A stretch of DNA of 64,000 bases from Rhizobium sp. SG_E_25_P2 (lineage in GTDB: Bacteria > Pseudomonadota > Alphaproteobacteria > Rhizobiales > Rhizobiaceae). The stretch is from positions 186,001 to 250,000 of the forward strand of contig NZ_JARXVM010000005.1 of assembly GCF_029892285.1 (NCBI RefSeq), read 5' to 3'. The position numbers and the translations under genes are program-made. The notes under the pieces are model-generated. The model did not search any database, was not told the origin of the DNA, and was given only the letters and a program-made list of their open reading frames with translations. Of the stretch, positions 9,984 to 30,379 are shown one piece after another (position 1 is the stretch's first letter; every line of letters begins with the position of its first letter).

Positions 9984-10577
9984 ATGAAGATTTTGGTGAT
10001 CGGCGCGAGCGGCGTGCTCGGCTCAGCCGTGGCGCGCGAATTGTCGGCGCGCCATGAGGTGATTTCCGCCTCGCGCAATGGCGACGTAAAAGTCGACGTC
10101 AAGGATGTCGACAGCATTCGGGCGATGTTCAAGACGGTCGGCGAGGTCGATGCAGTGGTCTCCGCCGCCGGCAAGGTGCATTTCGGCCCGCTCAAGGACA
10201 TGACAGCCGACCTGATGGCGGTTGGCGTCAAGGACAAGCTGATGGGCCAGGTCAATCTGGTGCTCGAAGGGACCCCTTATGTTCGCGACGGCGGCTCGTT
10301 CACGCTCATCTCCGGCATTCTCGGTCACGACCCGATCCGCGCCGGCTCCAGCGCCAGCCTGGTCAATGGCGCGATCGATTCCTTCGTGAAGGCCGCAGCC
10401 ATCGAACTGCCGCGCGGAATCCGCATCAATGCGATCAGCCCGACCGTGTTTGAGGAATCCATGGAAGGCTACGGCCCGTTCTTCCGCGGCTACAAGCCGG
10501 TCCCCGTGGCCGACGCCGCGCTTGCTTATTCGAAAAGCGTCGAAGGCGCCCAGACCGGGCAGGTCTATCGGGTCTGA
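9984..10577 (+). CDS. Short SDR-family oxidoreductase lacking the YxxxK motif
   Basis: The protein has 197 residues with an N-terminal Rossmann motif (MKILVIGASGVLGSAVAREL) and the NAG-like motif VVSAAGKVHFG. SDR enzymes normally have a catalytic Tyr-x3-Lys after the Ser strand. Here the segment after FTLISGILG is SSASLVNGAIDSFVKAAAIE, with no tyrosine at the expected place. This resembles the small SDR group of about 200 residues common in Proteobacteria, whose members may bind nucleotide without classical catalysis. It converges on the CorA-like gene, with 4 bases between the stops. Confidence 0.8.
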   Translation: MKILVIGASGVLGSAVARELSARHEVISASRNGDVKVDVKDVDSIRAMFKTVGEVDAVVSAAGKVHFGPLKDMTADLMAVGVKDKLMGQVNLVLEGTPYVRDGGSFTLISGILGHDPIRAGSSASLVNGAIDSFVKAAAIELPRGIRINAISPTVFEESMEGYGPFFRGYKPVPVADAALAYSKSVEGAQTGQVYRV

Positions 10578-10581
10578 GCCC

Positions 10582-11577
10582 TTACAAGATCCTCGCCCGC
10601 CGAAGCAGCATCCAGGCGGCGCCGATAGACAGCGTGATCAGCACTCCCGCAAAGAAGGTGCCGCCTTCGGTATGAGCGAAGGGCAGGTTTTCGGTGTTCA
10701 TGCCGAAAAAGCCAGTGACCAGCGTCGGCGGCATCAGGAAGGCGGTCAGCAGCGACAGGATATAGAGGTGGCGATTGGTTTCGGCCTGCGCGCGGGAATC
10801 GATATCTTCATGCAGGAGCCGCGCCCGTTCCTGCAGCGAAAACACATCGCGCTCGACCACCTCGATCCGCTCGGTCAGCTTCTGGGCGATTTCCTGAAAG
10901 CCGTCGGGCGCCTCGTCGTCGTCTGAGGCGGCGGCGCGGCGGAGCAGCGCCAGTTCGGTGCGCAGGTGGCGATAGAGCTTGACGATCGAGCGCCGGGCCG
11001 GGGCCAGCCGGTGGCGCTCGTCACGCTCGGCGTTTTCATAGACGAAATCCTCGATGCGGTTGAGTTCGTCGTTGATCTCCTGCGCCATGGCCATCACCGT
11101 GCGCTGGAATTCGATCACCAGCGTCGAAAACACATCCATCGGACCTGAGACGCGGGCGCTGTTCTTCTCCAGCGCTTGGCGCGCCCGGTCGATGCTGCGC
11201 AGCGGATGCAGCCTGGTGGTGATGATCATCTTGTCGGTGATGGCGAAATGCAGCCAGCCGATTTCCGAGGTCATTTCGTCAAAGCCCCGCTGCAGGTCGA
11301 TGATCGTGCCGCAGACGATCTCCGGCGACACCGATAGCGTCGCATGCGCGTCTCTGCTCGTCAGCGCCTGCACGGCCTCGGATGGCAGGCCTTGTATGCC
11401 TTCGAGAAGATGCGGCACGCGGGCATCCGACAGGCCCAGATGCAGCCAGAGAAAGCCGGGTTGCGATAAAAGCGCCTCTAGATGGGTGTCCGGCGGCAAT
11501 CTCAGGCTCGCGCCTGACTGCGGCTCAAAACGTGTCGCCCAGACGAAACCGGGAATGGTGGAGACGGGAAGCTCCAT
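10582..11577 (-). CDS. CorA/ZntB-like divalent metal transporter
   Basis: The cytoplasmic N-terminal domain and the long helical domain (RTVMAMAQEINDELNRIEDF) are followed by two C-terminal membrane segments. The first (LSLLTAFLMPPTLVTGFFGM) ends in the family's GMN signature. The second is FFAGVLITLSIGAAWMLLRR. The loop after GMN reads TENLPF; ZntB-like proteins share this type of loop, so Mg2+ or Zn2+ transport are both possible. CorA proteins are homopentameric. The ATG at 11577 gives about 331 residues; an upstream in-frame TTG at 11622 is less likely. The gene follows a pLGIC gene on the same strand by 32-77 bases and may share its transcript. Confidence 0.85.
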   Translation of the reverse strand: MELPVSTIPGFVWATRFEPQSGASLRLPPDTHLEALLSQPGFLWLHLGLSDARVPHLLEGIQGLPSEAVQALTSRDAHATLSVSPEIVCGTIIDLQRGFDEMTSEIGWLHFAITDKMIITTRLHPLRSIDRARQALEKNSARVSGPMDVFSTLVIEFQRTVMAMAQEINDELNRIEDFVYENAERDERHRLAPARRSIVKLYRHLRTELALLRRAAASDDDEAPDGFQEIAQKLTERIEVVERDVFSLQERARLLHEDIDSRAQAETNRHLYILSLLTAFLMPPTLVTGFFGMNTENLPFAHTEGGTFFAGVLITLSIGAAWMLLRRARIL

Positions 11578-11654
11578 GCTGTCAGCGACGTCCTTCTGTC
11601 CGAAACTTTGCCCGGACAGCAATAGGTCGCCGACATGACAGTTTTGCTACAAAA

Positions 11655-12716
11655 TCATGACAGCGAGCGCACGACCGAGCAGATGCAGATCAGCGTGAAG
11701 ATCGCCGGCAGGGTGAAGCGAACGCTGCGGTGGATTTCGCGAACGAGATAGACGTTGCGCCGCACGGCCGGAAAATCGGCGTATTGCAGTCCAAGATGGA
11801 TGAGCAGAGTGAGCACCAGGTAGAAATAGCCGAGCGAAATCATGAAGGCGATCGGTGAATTGACCGACATGGACCCCGGAAAGCTCGATTCGAAGGTGAA
11901 AGACAGCGCCGCCAGCGCCAGAAGCGCCGAATAGGTGATGCCCGCGTGGTCGACTTTCAACTTCTGCGGAGCCCAGAGAATGAACAGCGACACCGACACG
12001 ACGGCCGCGAACGGGACGAAGATCCGCAGGAGATAGCGCGGCCATTCGCGGCTCATGGTGGCGGTTGCGGTGGCGCGCACGAATGGCTTGGCGTTCCATC
12101 CGTAGAATTGGGTGAGCGTGAAGGACAGCCGTTCTGGCCGCCAATCCGAGATCGAGATCTGCTCCGCGATGGCGGAGAGTTCACGGTCGCGATCATCGAC
12201 CACGAAAATCAGATCGCTTGCCGAATAGCGCGGGGCAGTGAAGATGAAATCGATATTCTGCCGGTCGAAGGGAAAGGCGGCGAGATCGACCGAAATCCGG
12301 AAATCGGCGTCCAACTGCCGGATCAGAGCAATCGAGCCGTCGGCGGAGATCGAGAGGGCCACTGAACGAGAACGGGGCTCATCGATCTGATTGGCGATCG
12401 TGACGTCGGGCGTCCAGATCTCGGCGATCTTGCTTTCGGCTTCCTCGCCGAAATAATCGTGCCGGTAGACACCGGCCGCGATCGGATCAAAGGCTTGGTT
12501 CGGGTCTCTCCATCCTTGCGTATATTCCACGCGCGCCGAAATTTCGTCCTTGGTTTCCTCAAGCCGGGTGATGTTGAGCACCCGCACCGAGAGGTGGGTT
12601 TCGATGGGAAGATGCACGCGTCCCGGCAGCGACGGCGGCGGTCCCGAGGCGAAAGCCTGAGACGCCAGGCCCGCGAAAAGCAAAAACGTCGCGAAAAGCC
12701 TGCGGAGCGGAAACAT
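11655..12716 (-). CDS. Prokaryotic pentameric ligand-gated ion channel (Cys-loop/Pro-loop receptor homologue)
   Basis: The protein has 353 residues with a signal peptide (FLLFAGLASQAFA). The extracellular domain carries receptor-family motifs: EIWTPDVTIANQ, and the Pro-loop SVDLAAFPFDRQNIDF. The two cysteines of animal Cys-loop receptors are absent, as usual in bacteria. Four membrane helices follow: M1 (YLLRIFVPFAAVVSVSLFIL), pore-lining M2 (GITYSALLALAALSFTFESS), M3 (SPIAFMISLGYFYLVLTLLI) and M4 (VRFTLPAIFTLICICSVVRS). This matches the GLIC/ELIC family, which forms pentameric pores gated by protons or small amines. Its start overlaps the stop of the Cache sensor gene by one base (TGATG), so the two are probably made together. 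Ligand and ion selectivity are not readable. Confidence 0.88.
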   Translation of the reverse strand: MFPLRRLFATFLLFAGLASQAFASGPPPSLPGRVHLPIETHLSVRVLNITRLEETKDEISARVEYTQGWRDPNQAFDPIAAGVYRHDYFGEEAESKIAEIWTPDVTIANQIDEPRSRSVALSISADGSIALIRQLDADFRISVDLAAFPFDRQNIDFIFTAPRYSASDLIFVVDDRDRELSAIAEQISISDWRPERLSFTLTQFYGWNAKPFVRATATATMSREWPRYLLRIFVPFAAVVSVSLFILWAPQKLKVDHAGITYSALLALAALSFTFESSFPGSMSVNSPIAFMISLGYFYLVLTLLIHLGLQYADFPAVRRNVYLVREIHRSVRFTLPAIFTLICICSVVRSLS

Positions 12717-13795
12717 CAGGCGTCTCCGCCGCTGCGAAGCGCCCGGGCGGCGCCGTCGCGCATTTTGAGATAGGCTGCGAGCGCGGTGGTGGGCGCGCCG
12801 ATGCGGCCGCTCTGCAATTCATCGGCAAGTTCTTCGAGCGGACGGAAGACGAAGGCCCTGAGGCCGGCCATGATGACGCCGAACCCGATCATTAGTCCGG
12901 ACAGCGCTACAACGATCACGGTCACCAATGTGGCGCGGAAAGCCGCCTCCGCCACCGTGAAATCGCGGGCGACGATCATCGCGCCGATCACTTTGCCCGA
13001 ATAATCGAGGAGCGGTCGCGTCATCACCCCAAGCGTCGCGGCCTCGCGCTTGGTGATCTCAAGCTCTGGTCCGCGCGACAGTTTGATCAGACCGTCCTTC
13101 TGCAGCGCTTCAAACAATGTGCTGTTTGTGGAGCCGTCGAGCTGCAACTTGGCGCCGCGCTCGCCGAAACCGCCTTTGGCGGTGGGGATGTATTGCGGGT
13201 CGAGGAAAATCGCGAAATCCGCTCCAGTGGAGGATTTCGACGCCTCCATCAGCATTTTCAGACTGACGCCGACTTCCACCGTGCCGATCACCGCATCACT
13301 GTCAATTGCGGCGGAGACGGCGCGCAGGCTGAGGCCCTTCAAGCCGATTTCGAGACCCTTCTGCGGCTTGCGGCTGCGGTTGGCGGCCAGCACCATCGGC
13401 CGGATCTTTGACAGATCCTGCCCGAAGTCCTCGGGAGCCCAGACGCGCAGGAAGGATTTGATGTCGGCTGTCTGGAAATGCAGCACGTCGACGCCCGCTT
13501 CGAGCGCCAGGCTGTCGAGCGTCGGCTTCATCTTGGCCATGAGCCCCGCCCGATCGCCAGCCTTCAGCAGCGCGATCACCTGATTATCCTGGGCGATCAG
13601 TTCAGAATGACTGACCGTCAGGTTTTCCGCCTGAGTCATGGCGGTGATCAGCACGAGGCTGGTCGCCTCGATTTCCTTCTTCTCGCTTGCGGAAAGCGCT
13701 GCACGTCCATCCGCATAAAGGATCCAGCCGCCGATCGCCAGGGTCGCCCCCAGGATCAGGCTGGCGATGACGGCAATTCTGCGCTCGAGCTTCAT
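12716..13795 (-). CDS. Cache-type periplasmic sensor protein without output domain
   Basis: The 359-residue protein has an N-terminal membrane helix (IAVIASLILGATLAIGGWIL), about 250 periplasmic residues resembling the (double) Cache sensors of chemoreceptors (VDVLHFQTADIKSFLRVWAP, GLSLRAVSAAIDSDAVIGTV, and a membrane-proximal PLLDYSGKVIGAMIVARDF), and a second helix (LVTVIVVALSGLMIGFGVIM). A short HAMP-like stub (RPLEELADELQSGRIG) and about 25 further residues end the chain. There is no MCP signalling, kinase or cyclase domain, so any output must pass through a partner. The downstream, translationally coupled pLGIC gene is the obvious candidate. The ligand is unknown. Confidence 0.75.
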   Translation of the reverse strand: MKLERRIAVIASLILGATLAIGGWILYADGRAALSASEKKEIEATSLVLITAMTQAENLTVSHSELIAQDNQVIALLKAGDRAGLMAKMKPTLDSLALEAGVDVLHFQTADIKSFLRVWAPEDFGQDLSKIRPMVLAANRSRKPQKGLEIGLKGLSLRAVSAAIDSDAVIGTVEVGVSLKMLMEASKSSTGADFAIFLDPQYIPTAKGGFGERGAKLQLDGSTNSTLFEALQKDGLIKLSRGPELEITKREAATLGVMTRPLLDYSGKVIGAMIVARDFTVAEAAFRATLVTVIVVALSGLMIGFGVIMAGLRAFVFRPLEELADELQSGRIGAPTTALAAYLKMRDGAARALRSGGDA

Positions 13796-13898
13796 GGTGG
13801 TCCCGCAATCGAAATGAAACGCTTCTAGCGTTAGCGACTGCGGGAAAACTTGTCGACGATGGTGAACTATGCGGAAAGCTGCATTCCACAGTCCCCTT

Positions 13899-13924
13899 AA
13901 TTGACGTTTACGTAAAAATCAATT
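13899..13924. promoter_or_regulatory. LiuR-like operator upstream of acyl-CoA dehydrogenase
   Basis: A 26-base palindrome pairs 11 of 13 positions. Outer arms AATTGA/TCAATT and the inner perfect TTTACGTAAA (13907-13916) share one centre. The stretch TTGACGTTTACGTAAA (13901-13916) resembles the site I remember for MerR-family LiuR regulators of branched-chain amino acid and fatty acid breakdown. It lies about 68 bases before the start of an acyl-CoA dehydrogenase gene, which suits that regulon. The site match is from memory. Confidence 0.55.
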
Positions 13925-13991
13925 AGACCGACTTTCGAAAGTCCGCAGCGCGCGCTAGGCTGCGGCGGCACGATCAGCTTGGAGGAGCGGA

Positions 13992-15770
13992 ATGTACAAG
14001 GCGCCCGTGGGAGAAATTCTGGCTGCGCTCAAGGCGCAGGGGTTGGACATGGCGTTGGGACGCGGCGCTTATGCGGAGCTGACTGGCGATGTCGTTGAGG
14101 CCATCGTGGAGGAGGCGGGAAAGTTCGCCAGCGACGAGGTCGCGCCTCTGGGCGAGATCGGCGACAGGCAGGGTTCGCGCCTGATCGACGGCGCGATCAG
14201 GACGCCCGATGGTTGGGCGGATCTCTACAAGGCCTGGTCGACCGCCGGATGGAATTCGCTCACCGCGCCTGAGGCCTATGGCGGCCAGGCGCTGCCGCAT
14301 ATGCTTCTCGTGGCGACGCTAGAAATGTGGAATGGCGGCTCACTCGCGTTCTCCCTCTGCCCGACGCTCACCATCGGCGCGATCGAGGCGATCGAGGCGC
14401 ATGCGACGCAAACGCTCAAGCAAACATACCTGCCCAAAATGATCTCCGGCGAGTGGACCGGCTCGATGAACCTCACCGAGCCGCATTCCGGCTCCGATCT
14501 CGGGGTCATGCGCAGCCGCGCCGAGCGCCGCGACGACGGCAGCTACCGCATCTTCGGCCAGAAGATCTATATCACCTATGGCGAACACGATTTCACAGAC
14601 AATATCATCCATCTCGTGCTGGCCCGCCTGCCGGACGCGCCTGCCGGTTCGCGCGGCATCTCGCTGTTTTTGGTGCCGAAATTCCTTGTCAATGGCGATG
14701 GCTCGCTCGGCGCGCGCAACGACGCCTATTGCCATTCCATCGAGCACAAGCTCGGCATTCACGGCTCCCCCACCTGCACCATGATCTTCGGCGACGGCAA
14801 GTTCGGCGAGGAGAAGGGCGCGATCGGCTATCTGATCGGCGAGGAGAACAAGGGTCTCGCCTGCATGTTCACCATGATGAACAACGCCCGTCTCGCTGTC
14901 GGTATGCAGGGCGTCGCCGTCTGCGAAGCGGCGACCCAGAAGGCCATCGCCTACGCCAAAGAGCGCACCCAAGGCCGCGCGCCCGGCTGGACCGGCGCCG
15001 GCATGAGCCCGATCATCGAACATCCCGACATCCAGCGCATGCTGGCGACGATGAAGGCGCTGACCGCAGGCTCGCGCGCCATCGCTTATGCCTGCGCTCA
15101 CGCCATTGACATGGCGCATGTGACAGAAGGCGATGACAACAGGCACTGGCAGGAGCGCGCCAATCTGCTGACGCCGATCGCCAAGAGCTTCCCCACCGAT
15201 TGCGGGGTCGAGGTCGCCTCGCTCGGCGTGCAGGTGCATGGCGGCATGGGTTTCATCGAGGAAACCGGCGCGGCCCGGCTCTATCGCGATGTGCGCATCA
15301 CCACGATCTATGAGGGCACCAACGGCATCCAGGCCATCGATCTCATCGGCCGCAAGCTGCCGCAGTCGAATGGCGCACATGTGCTCGGCTTCATCGACGA
15401 GCTCGCCGCAACGGTCGATCAGGTCCGCGCCTCCAACGATCCCGGATTCGGCCGCACTGCCGACAGCCTCGACGCTGCGCTCGCCGATCTCCGCGAAGCC
15501 ACCACCTGGCTGCTCGCCAGCATGGGCGAGGGGAAGATGACCGAGGCGCTCGCCGGCGCCACGCCCTATCAGCGCCAGTTCGGGCTCACACTCACCGGCG
15601 TCTATCTCGCCAAATCCGCCATCACCCCTGTCGACGATGGCAAGGCCGAGACGCGCGTCGCGCTCGCCCGCTTCGCCAGTGAAAACCTGATCGCCGAGAC
15701 GGCGGCGCTGAAGGACCGTGTCATGCACGGGGCTGAAAGCCTGGCCGCCGTTCGCGCCGCCCTTGCCTGA
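13992..15770 (+). CDS. Acyl-CoA dehydrogenase (long, DmdC-like form)
   Basis: The protein has 592 residues, longer than classical acyl-CoA dehydrogenases (about 380), and fits the group with an extra C-terminal domain that includes DmdC-like enzymes. Visible segments are GSMNLTEPHSGSDLGVMRSR (FAD/substrate binding), KIYITYGEHDFTDNIIHLVL, EHKLGIHGSPTCTMIFGD, QVHGGMGFIEETGAARLYRD, and the catalytic-glutamate region ITTIYEGTNGIQAIDLIGRK. It introduces the alpha,beta double bond in an acyl-CoA ester, passing electrons to ETF. GGAGGAG (13981-13987) precedes the ATG. The enoyl-CoA hydratase gene follows after 10 bases, making a two-step beta-oxidation pair. A LiuR-like box lies upstream. Confidence 0.88.
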   Translation: MYKAPVGEILAALKAQGLDMALGRGAYAELTGDVVEAIVEEAGKFASDEVAPLGEIGDRQGSRLIDGAIRTPDGWADLYKAWSTAGWNSLTAPEAYGGQALPHMLLVATLEMWNGGSLAFSLCPTLTIGAIEAIEAHATQTLKQTYLPKMISGEWTGSMNLTEPHSGSDLGVMRSRAERRDDGSYRIFGQKIYITYGEHDFTDNIIHLVLARLPDAPAGSRGISLFLVPKFLVNGDGSLGARNDAYCHSIEHKLGIHGSPTCTMIFGDGKFGEEKGAIGYLIGEENKGLACMFTMMNNARLAVGMQGVAVCEAATQKAIAYAKERTQGRAPGWTGAGMSPIIEHPDIQRMLATMKALTAGSRAIAYACAHAIDMAHVTEGDDNRHWQERANLLTPIAKSFPTDCGVEVASLGVQVHGGMGFIEETGAARLYRDVRITTIYEGTNGIQAIDLIGRKLPQSNGAHVLGFIDELAATVDQVRASNDPGFGRTADSLDAALADLREATTWLLASMGEGKMTEALAGATPYQRQFGLTLTGVYLAKSAITPVDDGKAETRVALARFASENLIAETAALKDRVMHGAESLAAVRAALA

Positions 15771-23903: not shown

Positions 23904-25865
23904 TCAGAACTCCTCCCAGTCGTCCTTGACAGCGAGATTGCCGCTTGTCGGCCGGGGCGCGGAGTTGCGACTGCGCTGCGGAGCGCTGAAGGTTGCGCTC
24001 GCCATGCGAGAAGCGGTCTGGCGCAGAAGGTTTGCGGGCTGCGCCGCCGTATGAGCAAGCGAAAACCGGTTGACGAGATCGCGCAGCTTGGCGGCTTCCT
24101 GGGCCAGCGTTGCAGCCGCCGCGCTCGATTGTTCCACCATGGCCGCATTCTGCTGCGTGGAATGATCCATTGAGGAAACAGCGGCGTTGACTTCCTTGAG
24201 CCCGATCGATTGTTCGCGGGACGCCGTGGAGATTTCCTCCATCTTGCGATTGATCGTCAGGATGTGGCCGCCGATCGCATTGAGCGCGGCGCCTGCGTCG
24301 CGCACCAGTTTCACACCATTACCGACTTCGTTCGACGAGTTCTGGATCAGTTCCTTGATCTCCTTAGCGGCATTGGCCGACCGTTGGGCGAGTTCGCGCA
24401 CTTCCTGCGCCACGACGGCAAAGCCCTTGCCGGCGTCTCCGGCGCGTGCGGCTTCCACGCCGGCGTTCAACGCCAGCAGATTGGTCTGGAAGGCGATTTC
24501 GTCGATCACGCTGATGATGCTGGCAATCTTGCCGGAGGAATCCTCGATGCGCTGCATGGCGGCTTCGGCATTGGCGACGATCGCGCCTGATTTGCCGGCG
24601 TCGGCATTGGCCACCGTCGCCTCGTCGAGCACTTCCTTGGTCAGATGCGTCGAATTGGAGACGTTGACGGTGATTTGTTCGACGGCCGATGTGGTCTCTT
24701 CAAGCGAGGCGGCTTGCGATTCCGTGCGCTTGGCGAGATCGGCTGCGCCGGTGGCGATCTCGCGCGAACCAGCATCGATGACGCTCACGCTCGACCGGAT
24801 GGCGGACAATGCGTCGCCGAGCTGCTTGACCGAGGCGTTGAAGTCGTGCCGCAGGGCTTCGAAGTCTGGTGCGAAAGGTTCGGTCAGTTCGAAGGCCAGA
24901 TCGCCATCGGCCAGCCGACGCAATCCGCCGGCAAGTCCCGAGGTCGCCTGTTTGAGGCGGGCGGCAGCCTCGGATTCGGCGCGGGCCTGCGTCTCCAGGC
25001 GGCTGCGCTCCATCATCTGACGGTTCTCTTCCGCTTCGGCCTCGAGTTTGCGATTGCGAATGAACGCGGCCCGGAACACGTCGAGCGCCCGCGCCATGGC
25101 GCCGATCTCGTCGGCGCGGTCATGACCTTCGACATCCACAGAGATGTCGCCATTTGCGAGATGCTCCGTGGCGTTCGCCAGCTTGCGCAGCGGGCGGATT
25201 GCGGTGAGCCTGAGAAGAAGGGCGATGGCGCCGAGCGCGATGGTCAACACGGCGAAGCCGATCAGGAGTTTCGTCTTGATCGCAGCCGACACGGCGGCGC
25301 GCTCGGGAGCGAGATCGACGGCGGCGCTATAGGCGCCCACGACTTCGCCCGCCTGAATATTCATTTTTGCGGTATGACAGGCCGCGCAGGCTGGATCGGC
25401 CGCAGTGCCCTGACCCAGAATGACCGGGCGCGTGATGCGCATATGTTCGCCTGCGACCGTGACCTGGCCGGCCTTGTCGGTGATTGTCTTTTCGTCAACG
25501 GCGTCTTTGGGGCCTTCGAATTCCTGTGCGCCTTCCGATTTCTGGAAGGCCACGATCTTCGGACCCATCACCAGCCAGAGATCGACGCCCTGGCTCTGGG
25601 AGGAAAAGCGCTCCATGGTTCCGTCGAGCGTTTCGATCGCGGGATCGCCGTCCGCCACCTTGTCCCGGTTCAGCATGGCGCTCACATGCACGGATTCCAG
25701 CATGTCGAGCGCCGCATCGCCGCGCTTCTGCGCGTTTTCTTCGATCGACGCATTCTGCTGGGAAATTTCATAGGCGAGATTGGCGGCGCCAACCAACACC
25801 AGAACAGCTGCGACGCTGCCGATGATCTGCACCGACAGTGGTAGAGAATTGATGATGGATTTCAC
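23904..25865 (-). CDS. Methyl-accepting chemotaxis protein 1, with CxxCH sensor domain
   Basis: A chemoreceptor of about 653 residues. An N-terminal membrane helix ([20 protein letters not shown]) is followed by a periplasmic domain with a CAACH motif (about residues 160-164, DNA 25374-25388), a c-type heme attachment site. The layout resembles DUF3365/Tll0287-like heme sensors, so redox or gas sensing is inferred. A second helix, HAMP ([20 protein letters not shown]) and the MCP signalling domain follow, with the hairpin tip [20 protein letters not shown]. The tail is DDWEEF, a CheR/CheB tethering peptide. The GTG at 25865 was chosen because GGCGGAG lies just before it; another GTG at 25883 lacks such a site. 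It is the most divergent of the four receptors. Confidence 0.93.
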
Positions 25866-26094
25866 GATGGCTCCGCCCCACACGAATGACAGGTTTTGAC
25901 AAAGCGCAAGCCATGCGAAACCTGCTCATGTTTTAGCTATATAAAATTAACGAACCGTTGGTTTGTCATGCGGATTTACTTTTCTTGCTTTGCGCGCAAG
26001 TCTCTGTAAAAAAATACAAAATTGAATCAGTATATGCTAAATAACGCTTGCGGACAGCGAGCCGGTCTTTCGTCTGCCTGTGGCCCTTCCTCCA

Positions 26095-26148: not shown

Positions 26149-28101
26149 TCAGAACTCTTCCCAGTCGTCCTTGACGGCGGCGTTGCCATGCGAGACGGCT
26201 TTGGCGGCAGGGCGGGCCGCGACGGGGCGAGAGACTGCCGTGCTGGCCGCCGCCGGACGCGCCATGGCTGCAGCCGTCTGGCGAAGCGCTGCCGTCTGGG
26301 CGGCCGCGCCATGCTCCAGGCGGAACTGTGCCACGAGATCGCGCAGCTTGCCGGCTTCCTGGGCGAGCGAAGCTGCGGCGGCGGTGGACTGCTCCACCAT
26401 GGCGGCGTTCTGCTGGGTGGTCTGGTCCATCTGGTTGACGGCAGTGTTGACTTCCGCGAGCCCGGTCGATTGTTCGCGCGCCGAAGTGGCGATGGATTCC
26501 ATGTGGCGGTTGATCGTGCCGATATAGCCGCCGATGGTCTTCAGCGCCTCGCCGGTGTCGCGCACCAGTTTCACGCCGTTTTCGACTTCCGAGGTCGAAT
26601 TCTGGATCAGCCCCTTGATTTCCTTGGCGGCCTTGGCCGAGCGCTGGGCGAGCTCGCGCACTTCCTGCGCCACGACGGCGAAGCCCTTGCCGGCGTCTCC
26701 AGCGCGGGCGGCCTCGACGCCGGCGTTCAGCGCCAAGAGATTGGTCTGGAAGGCGATCTCATCGATCACGCCGATGATATTGGAGATCTGCTGGCTCGAT
26801 TGTTCGATGCGCTGCATCGCCTCTTCGGCATGGGACACGACGCCAGCGGAGTGCGCGGCGCTCTGATTGGCGGCCTGAGCCACGGTGCGGGCCTCGTCGG
26901 TCAGCTTGCTGGAGCTTGAGACATTGGCGGTGATCTCATCCAGCGCAGCCGCCGTTTCTTCGAGCGAGGCGGCCTGCTGCTCGGTGCGCTTGGAGAGGTC
27001 GGAGGCGCCGGAGGAAATTTCCCGCGTGCCGGAATCGATCGAGCGCGTGGCTTCGGCGACGGAGGCGAGCGTGTCGCGGAGCTGCGAGACCGCTGCGTTG
27101 AAATCGAGGCGAAGGCCGTCGAAATCCGCAGCGAAAGATTGCGACAGTTCGACGCCGAGATCGCCATTCGCCAGTTGTTTCAGCCCAGCGGCGAGGCCTG
27201 CAGTCGCCTCGGCCATTTCGCCGGCGCGGCGGCGGTCCTGTTCGGCCGCGCGGGCGCGTTCCGCTTCCGTCATGTGGCGGTCCTGGGCGGTCTGCGCTTC
27301 GAGGTCGCGGGCTTTGACGCCAGTGTCCTTGAATACCTGCACAGCCCTGGCCATGGCGCCGATCTCGTCGCGGCGATCCGCGCCTTGAACCGATGCTTCG
27401 AGATCCCCCTTGGCGAGAATATCCATGGTGGCGGAAAGGGCGCTGATCGGCTTGACGACCGTCGCGCGGACGACAGCGTAACCGATGGCGCAGACCAGCA
27501 TGAACCCAGCCAGAATCGCGAAGAACACCATCAGAATGGCGTGTTCTGTGGTCGAGGTGATCTTGGCGCTTTCCGTTACCTGCTTGTCGGTCAGTTTAGC
27601 GGTGGCTGCGGTGATCGCCTCGGAAACACCGACAATCTCCGGCTGGCAGATCTTGTAGAATTCTCTCTGGATCTTCTGATTGGCTGTCGGGTCCGTCGTG
27701 CTCAATCCGGCCGCAATGATATCGCTGCAGGTGACATCAATGACTTTCAAAGCCTGCGCCTTGATGTCCGGAAGCGATGTTTCGGTCGCCGCGGCTGCAA
27801 TGGCGGTATCCATGAGATCGATAAATCTCCGATGCGCGACATCGAATTCCGCCTTTGCGCTATTCAGAATTTTTGGATCGGAGGCCATGATAATGTCGCC
27901 GACAGTGGCGCGGATGGTCTGAAAATTGCGGTTGGCGCGCGCCAAGGACACGGCCGCGACGGATTCGTGCTCTATGAGATCGCTGTATCCGCCATCAATG
28001 TCGCTCATGACTGATGCGGAATAGAGCGCCACTGCCAGTGTAAAAAACCCGAAGAGCCCCATAATCAGCAGGAATTTCAGCGTGATCGGAATGTTTTTCA
28101 T
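26149..28101 (-). CDS. Methyl-accepting chemotaxis protein 2
   Basis: A chemoreceptor of about 650 residues. TM1 is [20 protein letters not shown]. The periplasmic part of about 150 residues is helical ([20 protein letters not shown]), of four-helix-bundle type, with two cysteines ([10 protein letters not shown] and YKICQPEI). TM2 ([20 protein letters not shown]) leads to HAMP, and the signalling domain has the tip [20 protein letters not shown]. The tail [11 protein letters not shown] should bind CheR/CheB. The start was set at 28101 ([10 protein letters not shown]) behind AAAGGGA; the frame stays open to 28152. From about residue 340 onward it is nearly identical to receptors 3 and 4. The ligand is unknown. 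Confidence 0.93.
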
Positions 28102-28218
28102 GGAGTTTTCCCTTTTATATTTACGAGCGGCATGCGCCAAATAACAAACCACGAATGGTGTCTACATATTTAATCAAAAACGAACAGTTAACGTGTGGTT
28201 GTGGTTCGTGGGGCGTGA

Positions 28219-28408: not shown

Positions 28409-30379
28409 TCAGAACTCTTCCCAGTCGTCCTTGACGGCGGCGTTGCCATGCGAGGCGGCCTTGGCGGCTGGGCGAGCCGGGGACGGGCGGGCCGGAGCGG
28501 TGCGAGAGGCGGACGGGCGGGCGGCCGCAGTGGGACGCGCCATGGCGGCTGCCGTCTGACGAAGCGCTGCCGTCTGGGCGGCCGCGCCATGCTCCAGGCG
28601 GAACTGGGCGACGAGATCACGCAGCTTGCCGGCTTCCTGGGCGAGCGAGGCGGCGGCGGCGGTGGATTGCTCCACCATCGCGGCGTTCTGCTGGGTGGTC
28701 TGGTCCATCTGGTTGACGGCGACATTGACCTCTGCGAGGCCGGTCGATTGTTCGCGCGCCGAAGTGGCGATGGATTCCATGTGGCGGTTGATCGTGCCGA
28801 TATAGCCGCCGATGGTCTTCAGCGCCTCGCCGGCGTCACGCACGAGCTTGACGCCGCCTTCGACTTCCGAGGTCGAATTCTGGATCAGTCCCTTGATCTC
28901 CTTGGCGGCGCTTGCCGAACGTTGGGCGAGTTCGCGGACTTCCTGGGCGACGACGGCGAAACCCTTGCCGGCTTCGCCAGCGCGCGCCGCTTCGACGCCG
29001 GCATTGAGCGCCAAGAGATTGGTCTGGAAGGCGATCTCGTCGATCACGCCAATGATGTTGGAAATCTGCTGGCTGGATTGCTCGATGCGCTGCATGGCCT
29101 CTTCGGCATGCGCCACCACCTTGGCGGATTCCGCCGCGCTCTTATTGGCCGATTGCGCCACGCCCCGCGCCTCGTCGGTCAGCTTGCTGGAGCTCGAGAC
29201 ATTGGCGGTGATCTCATCCAGCGCTGCGGCGGTCTCTTCCAGCGAGGCGGCCTGCTGTTCGGTGCGCTTGGAAAGGTCGGAGGCGCCGGAGGAAATTTCC
29301 CGCGTGCCGCTGTCCATGTTCTGCACCGCGACAGACACCGAGGCGATGGTCTGGCTCAATTGCTCGACGGTGACGTTGAAGTCGGACCTCAGGCTTTCAT
29401 ATTCGGCGGCGAAGGCCGTGTCGATCCGGCAGGTCAGGTCGCCCGAGGCAAGCTTCTTCAGGCTTTCGCCGAGCGTTGAAGTGGCGATGCGCAGCTGTTC
29501 GGCCTCGCGGGCGGCGCGCTGCTGTTCGGCGAGGCGGTTCTGCTCGGCGTCGCTGCGCAGTTGCTCGCTCTGGCTTTCGAGTTGGCGGGCCCGGAGCGCA
29601 TTGTCCTTGAACACCTGCACCGCAACGGCCATTTTGCCGATTTCGTCGCCGCGGTCGCGGCCGGAAATCTCCAGGTTGAGATCTCCATCAGCCAGCTTCG
29701 CCATACCCGACCGCATGATGTCGAGCGGCGCGACAAGCCATGCGCGCACAGCGAAATAGGCGGCTGTCATGATGACCGCAGTGCCGATGATCATGCCTGC
29801 AAGTGTAGAGTTGGCGATGAAGAGCGATTGGACCGTCAGGTCGTCGCTGACTTTTGCCGCCACAGCTTCCAGCTCCTTCGTTTTGTCGGCAATGACCTTA
29901 CTCAATGGCGGAAACTTGGTCTGACATTGGCTTCTGAAGAGCTCGATCGCCTTTATGACATCTGCGTCTGTAGTAGTTGCGGCGCCAGCAACGAAGGAAG
30001 CCGCGCAATCCTTGTCGAGGATCGTGATACCGAGTTCCCGAAATGTTTTCAGGTCTTGATCGTCTGGGAGCGCCTTTATGGCTGTGTTCGTGAAATCATC
30101 GAAGCTTTTTCGCGCAGAGGCAAACTCAGCTTTCGCGGTTTCAACTGCCGTAGGGTCAGAAACCATGATGGTTTCGCCGATCGCCGCTCGGGCGTTCTGG
30201 AATGCCCGATTGGACTTTGCGAGAAACTGGGCTGCGCGCTGTTCTGTCACCAGAAGTCCGGAATAGGCTGTATCGACATGCTTGATCTTCTGGCCGGCAT
30301 AGAACGACGCCGCGACGGCGAAAGCGCCGAAAGCGGCGAGGATCAGCAGGATTTTATAGACGATAGGAAGGTTTTTCAT
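28409..30379 (-). CDS. Methyl-accepting chemotaxis protein 3
   Basis: This 656-residue chemoreceptor starts [10 protein letters not shown], behind AAGGA. TM1 is [20 protein letters not shown]. The periplasmic domain is of four-helix-bundle type ([20 protein letters not shown]) with two cysteines (KDCAASF and SQCQTKF). TM2 is followed by HAMP, an E/Q/R-rich coiled linker and the signalling domain with [20 protein letters not shown]. The tail is [11 protein letters not shown]. From the linker ([20 protein letters not shown]) to the C terminus it is almost identical in protein and DNA to receptor 4, while the sensor halves are unrelated. This points to recent duplication or gene conversion. Confidence 0.93.

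Follow-up and report, generated by a model that had tools for sequence, protein, structure and literature searches.

Gene Layout of the Locus

The stretch of DNA analyzed here, which we refer to as the window, covers 64,000 nucleotides of the genome of Rhizobium sp. SG_E_25_P2 (contig NZ_JARXVM010000005.1, positions 186,001 to 250,000) and contains overlapping genes for a Cache sensor protein and a pentameric ligand-gated ion channel (pLGIC). The pLGIC is a bacterial relative of the nerve-receptor ion channels, and the Cache protein resembles a chemotaxis receptor without its signalling end. A first-pass annotation, made from the sequence alone, had grouped these 2 genes with a downstream gene for a CorA-like transporter, and suggested that the Cache protein could gate or tune the channel and that the CorA-like protein could restore the cation balance. 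All 3 genes were confirmed at the positions that it had assigned to them. The features of the Cache/pLGIC unit are the following:

12716-13795, minus strand: gene for the dCache_3 sensor, 359 amino acids, PF14827
11655-12716, minus strand: gene for the pLGIC subunit, 353 amino acids, PF02931, with a match to GLIC
12714-12718, minus strand: TGATG stop/start overlap of the Cache and pLGIC genes, at which translational coupling would be expected

The junction reads CCTGATG, with one base common to the stop codon of the Cache gene and the start codon of the pLGIC gene, which agrees with the overlap described in the first-pass annotation. A signal scan of positions 10400-14100 identified 7 terminator-like sites versus 3.0 expected, none of which was located at the Cache/pLGIC junction or in the gap between the pLGIC and CorA genes, and no sigma-70-like site was found in the same region. 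The GC content of the pLGIC gene (59.8%) and of the Cache gene (62.5%) is near that of the window (62.3%), and the base composition of the pair therefore gives no sign of recent import.

The Cache and Channel Proteins

The Cache protein matched PF14827 (dCache_3) in Pfam at 4e-20, with 72.9 bits versus a cut-off of 25.7, and no match to an output domain (MCPsignal, kinase, or GGDEF) was found at E up to 1, in line with its earlier description as a Cache sensor without an output domain. The architecture predicted from the sequence and the structure model consists of a transmembrane segment (TM1), a double Cache periplasmic sensor, a second transmembrane segment (TM2), and a cytoplasmic stub of about 46 residues, which opens with a HAMP-like RPLEEL motif as judged by eye. 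AlphaFold2 models of the Cache protein and the pLGIC were built from alignments of 11 rows. The Cache model (m7c2ccf2a528f, pLDDT 86) contained a helix at residues 3-68, 2 mixed lobes, a helix at residues 280-328 and a short tail, which places the dCache_3 domain between 2 long helices, as in other sensors of this family. A search of solved structures with the single Cache sequence gave no relative at E up to 10, and one with the profile matched only small sensor-kinase domains, all weakly (best E 0.0054; CitA 0.03). Foldseek matched the model to many sensor domains, among them DctB, McpH, CitA, and PctA, mostly with whole-model TM-scores of about 0.3 to 0.5, and at such low scores the fold matches do not settle the ligand of the Cache protein.

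The pLGIC matched PF02931 (Neur_chan_LBD) at 1.9e-17, with 63.9 bits versus a cut-off of 26, and its best sequence match in the PDB was GLIC (2e-14), aligned over nearly the full length. The residues that mark the superfamily are present, namely the Pro-loop FPFD (F148, P149, F150, D151) and the proline of M1 (P235). The model of the channel was moderately confident overall (pLDDT 77) and less so in its membrane part, and comprised an N-terminal hydrophobic segment, a β-sandwich and 4 C-terminal helices at residues 226-248, 251-278, 288-312, and 322-352, consistent with the Pro-loop and 4 membrane helices reported in the first-pass annotation. The fold matches found with Foldseek were the GABA-A receptor (RDL), the glycine receptor, DeCLIC and GLIC, at about 1e-20 to 4e-21.

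Conservation and Exclusivity of the Pair

To study the pair in other genomes, pLGIC genes were searched for in draws of 9 genomes at the level of the genus, 297 of the family, 397 of the order, 385 of the class and 398 of the phylum, the last with a profile of the paired channels. For the loci in the genus, family and order draws, about 6 kb was fetched on each side, and the open reading frames were searched with the Cache protein of the window. Matches to the pLGIC were identified in 5 of the 9 genus genomes, in 12 family genomes (13 loci), in 24 order genomes (27 loci), in 5 class genomes and in 14 phylum genomes. A homologous Cache gene was located directly upstream on the same strand at 5 of 5 loci in the genus and at 13 of 13 loci in the family, and because of the latter the adjacency of the 2 genes is not due to chance. 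The order draw contained 11 paired and 16 unpaired loci, and the roughly 6 kb fetched to either side of the latter gave no match to a profile of the pair Cache proteins at E up to 1. The Cache gene was also not found at 4 loci of the class draw, besides that of the window, and at 12 other loci of the phylum draw, in stretches of at most 1.5 kb on each side, some of which were at contig edges.

In total, 28 distinct paired loci were collected, including those on named contigs, and a 29th was identified in the phylum draw (genome G1087, locus L159), so that the pair recurs beyond the window; a lack of conservation elsewhere, which the first-pass annotation had named as a refutation of its proposal, was thus not observed. 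The loci L082, L083, L084, L085, and L087 are on contigs that duplicate others in the collection and were excluded from the trees and counts but included in the alignments for the structure models. Throughout, we use unpaired for channels without this dCache_3 partner; downstream of 3 unpaired channels among those scanned, another protein with a weak resemblance to Cache proteins is encoded.

In 26 of the 28 pairs, an in-frame start codon for the pLGIC is available between -4 and +4 bases relative to the stop codon of the Cache gene, with a 4-base overlap possible in 19 of them. The start codons of several relatives were assigned mechanically, and some N-termini are over-long. The exceptions were L041 (+16) and L070, which has no in-frame start nearby. 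It was also noted that L070 and its counterpart L082 contain the TGATG sequence, that the channel frame has no in-frame start there, and that homology begins at query residue 31; the 5' end of this pLGIC gene may contain a frameshift, or an error of sequencing, in the part that encodes the signal peptide.

In the reverse direction, a profile of the 28 Cache proteins was searched against 394 genomes of the order, with at most 4 candidates scored per genome. The 11 matches at 357 to 511 bits were exactly the 11 Cache proteins encoded next to a pLGIC gene, and the next match scored 214 bits. Among the weaker matches listed, which are an incomplete set, all but 3 were located in open reading frames of more than 580 residues; all 6 of those scanned contained dCache_3 and MCPsignal domains, with HAMP above the cut-off in 5. 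By sequence, the nearest kin found of the pair Cache proteins are thus chemoreceptors. The 3 partial matches in short frames were of 288, 225, and 221 amino acids (167, 116, and 91 bits, respectively), of which the first runs into the end of a contig and the other 2 are located in G352 (contig 345, 29286-29870) and G296 (contig 70, 7065-7595). With a reservation for these 3 short frames, stand-alone Cache proteins of this family accompany the channel in the genomes sampled. A tblastn search of 72,556 plasmid records gave no match to the pLGIC and 3 partial matches to the Cache protein.

Co-inheritance of the Cache and Channel Genes

Phylogenies were inferred from 46 channels, with the wrong-strand locus L099 left out, and from 47 Cache domains, consisting of the 28 pair Cache proteins and 19 rows of the methyl-accepting chemotaxis protein (MCP) type. 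The 28 paired channels formed one side of a single branch with 100/99 support, and so did their 28 Cache proteins with 100/100 support. When trees of the 28 pairs were compared, 18 of 25 splits were common to the channel and Cache trees. Of the splits with at least 95% support, all 14 in the channel tree recurred in the Cache tree and 16 of 18 did so in the opposite direction, with no strongly supported conflict. The mirror-tree correlation was r 0.84. The long-branched pair L040 was placed differently in the 2 trees without strong support.

The paired channels fall into 2 deep groups that are about 20% to 22% identical to each other, and the Cache gene is present in both. Two genomes contain 2 pairs each, G473 (L074 and L077) and G065 (L040 and L051), and each Cache protein groups with its own channel; these genomes would be useful for partner exchange. 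The genes that flank the pair in the window were found around it in the near kin G399, G400, G398, and G397 and partly in G503, and were not found at the 8 other paired loci compared. As its neighbors vary from one locus to another, the pair moves as a unit and has been kept together in doing so.

Sequence Features of the Pair Cache Proteins

All 28 pair Cache proteins end 6 to 63 residues past TM2 and do not contain the cytoplasmic output domain that is usual for dCache_3 proteins. The tail is 46 to 63 residues long in 23 of them and only 6 to 16 residues in the remaining 5, which represent 3 lineages (L076, L041, L043, and the near-identical L036 and L037). Cytoplasmic output is therefore not the function that they have in common.

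Positions conserved to at least 85% in both the pair Cache proteins and the 19 MCP-type rows were A68, R82, L85, F107, R117, P121, G125, D127, S129, R132, N139, G147, G154, G171, E174, G176, and S266, and the dCache_3 core motif (R117, P121, D127, R132, G147, G154, and E174, among others) is thus common to the 2 sets. It was further noted that 16 positions are fixed or nearly fixed in the MCPs and have a different commonest residue in the pair Cache proteins, including positions 104, 106, 119, 123, 126, 134, 156, 169, and 179, and that E65, P133, and L262 are conserved among the latter and rare among the former. On these patterns, sensing seems to have been kept in the pair Cache proteins, and their ligand probably differs.

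The window also contains 3 consecutive MCP-like frames on the minus strand, at 23904-25883, 26149-28152, and 28409-30379, of which the first has HAMP and MCPsignal domains by Pfam and the other 2 were judged from their translations.

Sequence Features of the Paired Channels

We compared the 28 paired channels to 18 unpaired channels. The residues A93, S181, G206, and W207 in the extracellular domain and F233, A238, L265, A267, T274, L300, and L304 in the membrane part are present in at least 96% of the paired and at most 17% of the unpaired channels. The 2 sets also differ at loop C, the loop that shuts over the bound agonist in animal receptors. In 17 of the 18 unpaired channels, this loop is longer than in the paired channels, by a single residue in 5 of these cases. 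In the paired channels, it contains an invariant G206-W207, with W207 in 28 of 28 paired versus 0 of 18 unpaired channels. The altered loop C is a candidate site of contact with the Cache protein.

For the pore, we take the prime numbering to follow the usual convention, set by eye on these channels. An acidic residue occupies position -1' in 24 of the 28 paired channels versus 7 of the 18 unpaired ones, and the paired channels have Leu or Phe at 9', Ala at 13', and Phe at 16'. These pore residues, and the acidic -1' in particular, suggest that the paired pLGIC is a cation channel.

The CorA Gene and the Site of the Pair

The remaining features of the locus are the following:

10582-11622, minus strand: gene for a CorA-family (ZntB-like) transporter, PF01544, a neighbor outside the Cache/pLGIC unit
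13992-15770, plus strand: gene for an acyl-CoA dehydrogenase, part of the flank only, and neighbor of the CorA gene in relatives without the pair at this site
13796-13991: divergent intergenic region common to the pair and the acyl-CoA dehydrogenase gene, which holds the element ACGTTTACGTAAAAATCAA

The CorA protein matched PF01544 at 2.5e-51 (175.2 bits versus a cut-off of 27), and its translation contains GFFGMN, which we take to be the GMN motif of the CorA family. The scores fell below the NCBIfam equivalog cut-offs for both ZntB (68 bits versus 292) and CorA (60.3 versus 200.75). The window genome contains 2 further CorA-family genes. As described in the first-pass annotation, the gene is located on the same strand as the pLGIC gene and 32 to 77 bases past it, with a gap of 32 bases if translation starts at the TTG at 11622 and 77 bases if it starts at the ATG at 11577.

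A search for the CorA protein in 20 genomes at E up to 1e-20 gave matches in 17, of which 13, including the window genome, had at least 52% identity and 4 had 29% to 33%; there was no match at this threshold in G398, G402, and G323. The pair is located between the dehydrogenase and CorA genes in the window and in G399, G400, and G503. In 7 genomes (L149 to L155), the CorA gene adjoins the same acyl-CoA dehydrogenase gene with no pair at the site. No pLGIC was found in 4 of these genomes (G404, G403, G401, and G295), and the pair is located elsewhere in the other 3 (G594, G566, and G499); the absence of the pair is less certain in G404, G401, and G402, which are 81% to 84% complete. In G203, the CorA gene is not located beside the acyl-CoA dehydrogenase gene. 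Since the CorA gene sits beside the same dehydrogenase gene in 7 genomes without the pair there, it is probably no more than a neighbor of the pair and appears to have long occupied this position.

The element ACGTTTACGTAAAAATCAA is located within 13899-13931, upstream of the dehydrogenase gene, and has been kept in relatives both with and without the pair. It was clear in 7 of the 8 genomes compared and near background in G594, and may perhaps be a regulator site for the acyl-CoA dehydrogenase gene. The intergenic region that holds it should contain the promoter of the pair as well.

Relation to Known Systems

Tasneem et al. 2004 (PMC549065) described a predicted operon in Rhodopseudomonas that combines a stand-alone Cache gene with a gene for a ligand-gated ion channel (LGIC, of the ART-LGIC type) of simple architecture, and proposed that the 2 proteins cooperate; the same text lists Cache, PBP-I, and MCP-N domains fused to prokaryotic LGICs. 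The arrangement is thus already known and had been seen once before in the literature searched. The TGATG overlap in the window and the close starts in 26 of the 28 pairs correspond to a predicted operon of this type. Unlike the present comparison, with which it was matched by description, the excerpted account concerns a single bacterium and presents no test of exclusivity, co-inheritance or the origin of the Cache protein. The analysis presented here shows a recurrent and co-inherited module, exclusive in the sample, whose sensor is akin to chemoreceptors and to which the CorA gene does not appear to belong.

In a survey of Cache domains from 2016 (PMC4822843), which classed 883 dCache_3 proteins by their output, the ion-channel column had no entry in the excerpted part. 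Like the pLGIC in the window, DeCLIC (PMC9897478, PMC12664993) has an additional periplasmic module, which in DeCLIC influences gating, but there the module is a fused N-terminal domain with jelly-roll lobes (PMC9897478), whereas the module in the window is a separate dCache_3 membrane protein. A Cache-containing auxiliary protein of an ion channel is also known in the α2-δ subunit of voltage-gated calcium channels, which involves another channel family and another class of Cache domain (PMC549065, PMC4822843). ELIC is encoded in an operon with a putative decarboxylase (PMC3119659), and the words Cache and operon are absent from PMC4795631. No paper testing a Cache-pLGIC pair was found in the open-licence literature.

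GLIC and ELIC belong to the same superfamily as the pLGIC in the window and have its core motifs, and GLIC is its best sequence match. We know of no dCache_3 partner for either of them. The dCache_3 MCPs, finally, are the closest relatives found of the Cache protein and have the same sensor core, but the 6 that were scanned contain MCPsignal and HAMP domains (one HAMP below the cut-off), for which the pair Cache proteins have no room.

A Probable Dedicated Sensor for the Channel

The best reading of the sequences is that a chemoreceptor-derived dCache_3 sensor has lost its kinase-control domain and may now be a dedicated sensing or modulating subunit of the pLGIC. The 2 overlapping genes would then encode a split receptor, in which the Cache protein would bind a small ligand in the periplasm and, as it lacks a cytoplasmic output, would relay the signal laterally to the channel by way of its periplasmic or transmembrane part. 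The pLGIC would open, or change its opening, and admit cations. Since the cytoplasmic tail is nearly absent from some Cache proteins, physical contact between the partners should be periplasmic or intramembrane. That the Cache protein has a sensing role that acts through the channel is in our judgment probable, although by no means assured. A stronger version, in which the former chemoreceptor is an obligate sensing subunit of a two-protein ligand-gated channel, would have recognition handed over from the short Gly-Trp loop C to the separate Cache subunit, which would gate the pore through the periplasm or the membrane; we regard this version as tentative and somewhat short of an even chance.

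Several observations weigh against such readings or limit them. The 18 other pLGICs compared have no such Cache gene in the stretches searched, and the 3 matches in short frames may be stand-alone Cache proteins without a channel, or fragments. The channel and Cache trees differ at 7 of 25 splits, without strong support, and the mirror-tree correlation partly reflects species history. The pair has a single origin in the sample, so that its long co-inheritance represents one event rather than many. Because every paired channel belongs to a single clade, there is no second, independent case of the loop C difference, and the residues special to these channels are inseparable from shared ancestry; moreover, the loop in the unpaired channel L052 is of the same length as in the paired channels, and 5 unpaired channels have just one residue more. 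The positions that are fixed in the MCPs vary among the pair Cache proteins, and their ligand may therefore differ between clades.

The same pairing, exclusivity and co-inheritance would be expected if the Cache protein were an auxiliary subunit for the assembly, stability or tuning of the channel and the extracellular domain of the channel itself bound the gating ligand. The paired channels keep a complete extracellular domain with conserved D177, S181, G206, and W207, and the α2-δ subunit named in PMC549065 provides a parallel, but the core motif kept alike in the pair Cache proteins and the MCPs fits ligand sensing, and loop C is short in the paired channels, which makes a purely auxiliary role the less likely account, at perhaps one chance in a few. 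The Cache protein might instead signal to other targets, such as when it mixes with dCache_3 chemoreceptors by means of its transmembrane helices and HAMP-like stub, with the channel simply co-expressed. This reading agrees with the MCPs being the nearest relatives and with the tails of 46 to 63 residues, which often open with a HAMP-like RPL motif as judged by eye. It appears very unlikely, however, given the tails of only 6 to 16 residues in 3 lineages, the pairing of all 11 top matches in the order draw with a pLGIC, and the weak score (22.8 bits) of the sole other match to the Cache protein in the window genome.

Least probable of all, and in our view hardly credible, is a unit of 3 genes in which the CorA protein restores the cation balance after the channel has opened. 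The CorA gene is located close downstream of the pair in the window and is likewise downstream of it in G503 and 2 sister species; in G397, it is found at the opposite end of the pair, directly upstream of the Cache gene. However, it occupies the same flank without the pair in the 7 genomes listed above, and G398 contains the pair with no CorA match at E up to 1e-20. We therefore rejected the CorA protein as a third component on synteny, and this part of the first-pass annotation did not hold; co-transcription of the gene with the pair in the window strain is possible.

The split receptor with a Cache protein that tunes the channel would be the most economical reading, because the pair is conserved, exclusive and co-inherited and the tails are at most 63 residues long in all 28 Cache proteins. 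The association behind the first-pass proposal has accordingly been upheld, and the gating itself is what we infer from it. If this is correct, the system would be a receptor-channel whose sensing subunit is a protein of its own. It would parallel the calcium channels of animals with their Cache-bearing auxiliary subunit, and the sensor of a chemoreceptor would have been re-used in it for the control of ion flow. To our knowledge, the gating of most bacterial pLGICs and their cellular role are largely open questions, and a dedicated, exclusive and separable sensor provides a direct handle on channel gating.

Other Channel Loci

Two other arrangements were noted among the pLGIC loci. At L042, L045, L046, and L047 (G302, G149, G316, and G343), the pLGIC gene was in all 4 cases preceded on the same strand by a gene for glutamate decarboxylase (TIGR01788, 411 to 425 bits versus a cut-off of 380.4). 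Downstream of the channel, L042, L045, and L047 contained genes for a protein with a weak PDC/Cache match (27.9 to 30.1 bits, cut-off 27) and an MFS transporter. These 4 loci apparently represent a GABA-making operon with a channel, similar to the ELIC operon (PMC3119659).

At L164, L166, L168, and L170, the pLGIC frames were 718 to 739 amino acids long in the fetched stretch. Their long N-terminal part resembles a type I periplasmic binding protein as judged by eye, which would correspond to the fused architecture in PMC549065. Two pLGIC frames were found on one strand in L166 and on opposite strands in L167. The genus of L164, L166, L168, and L170 (g566) also holds the Cache-paired G1087.

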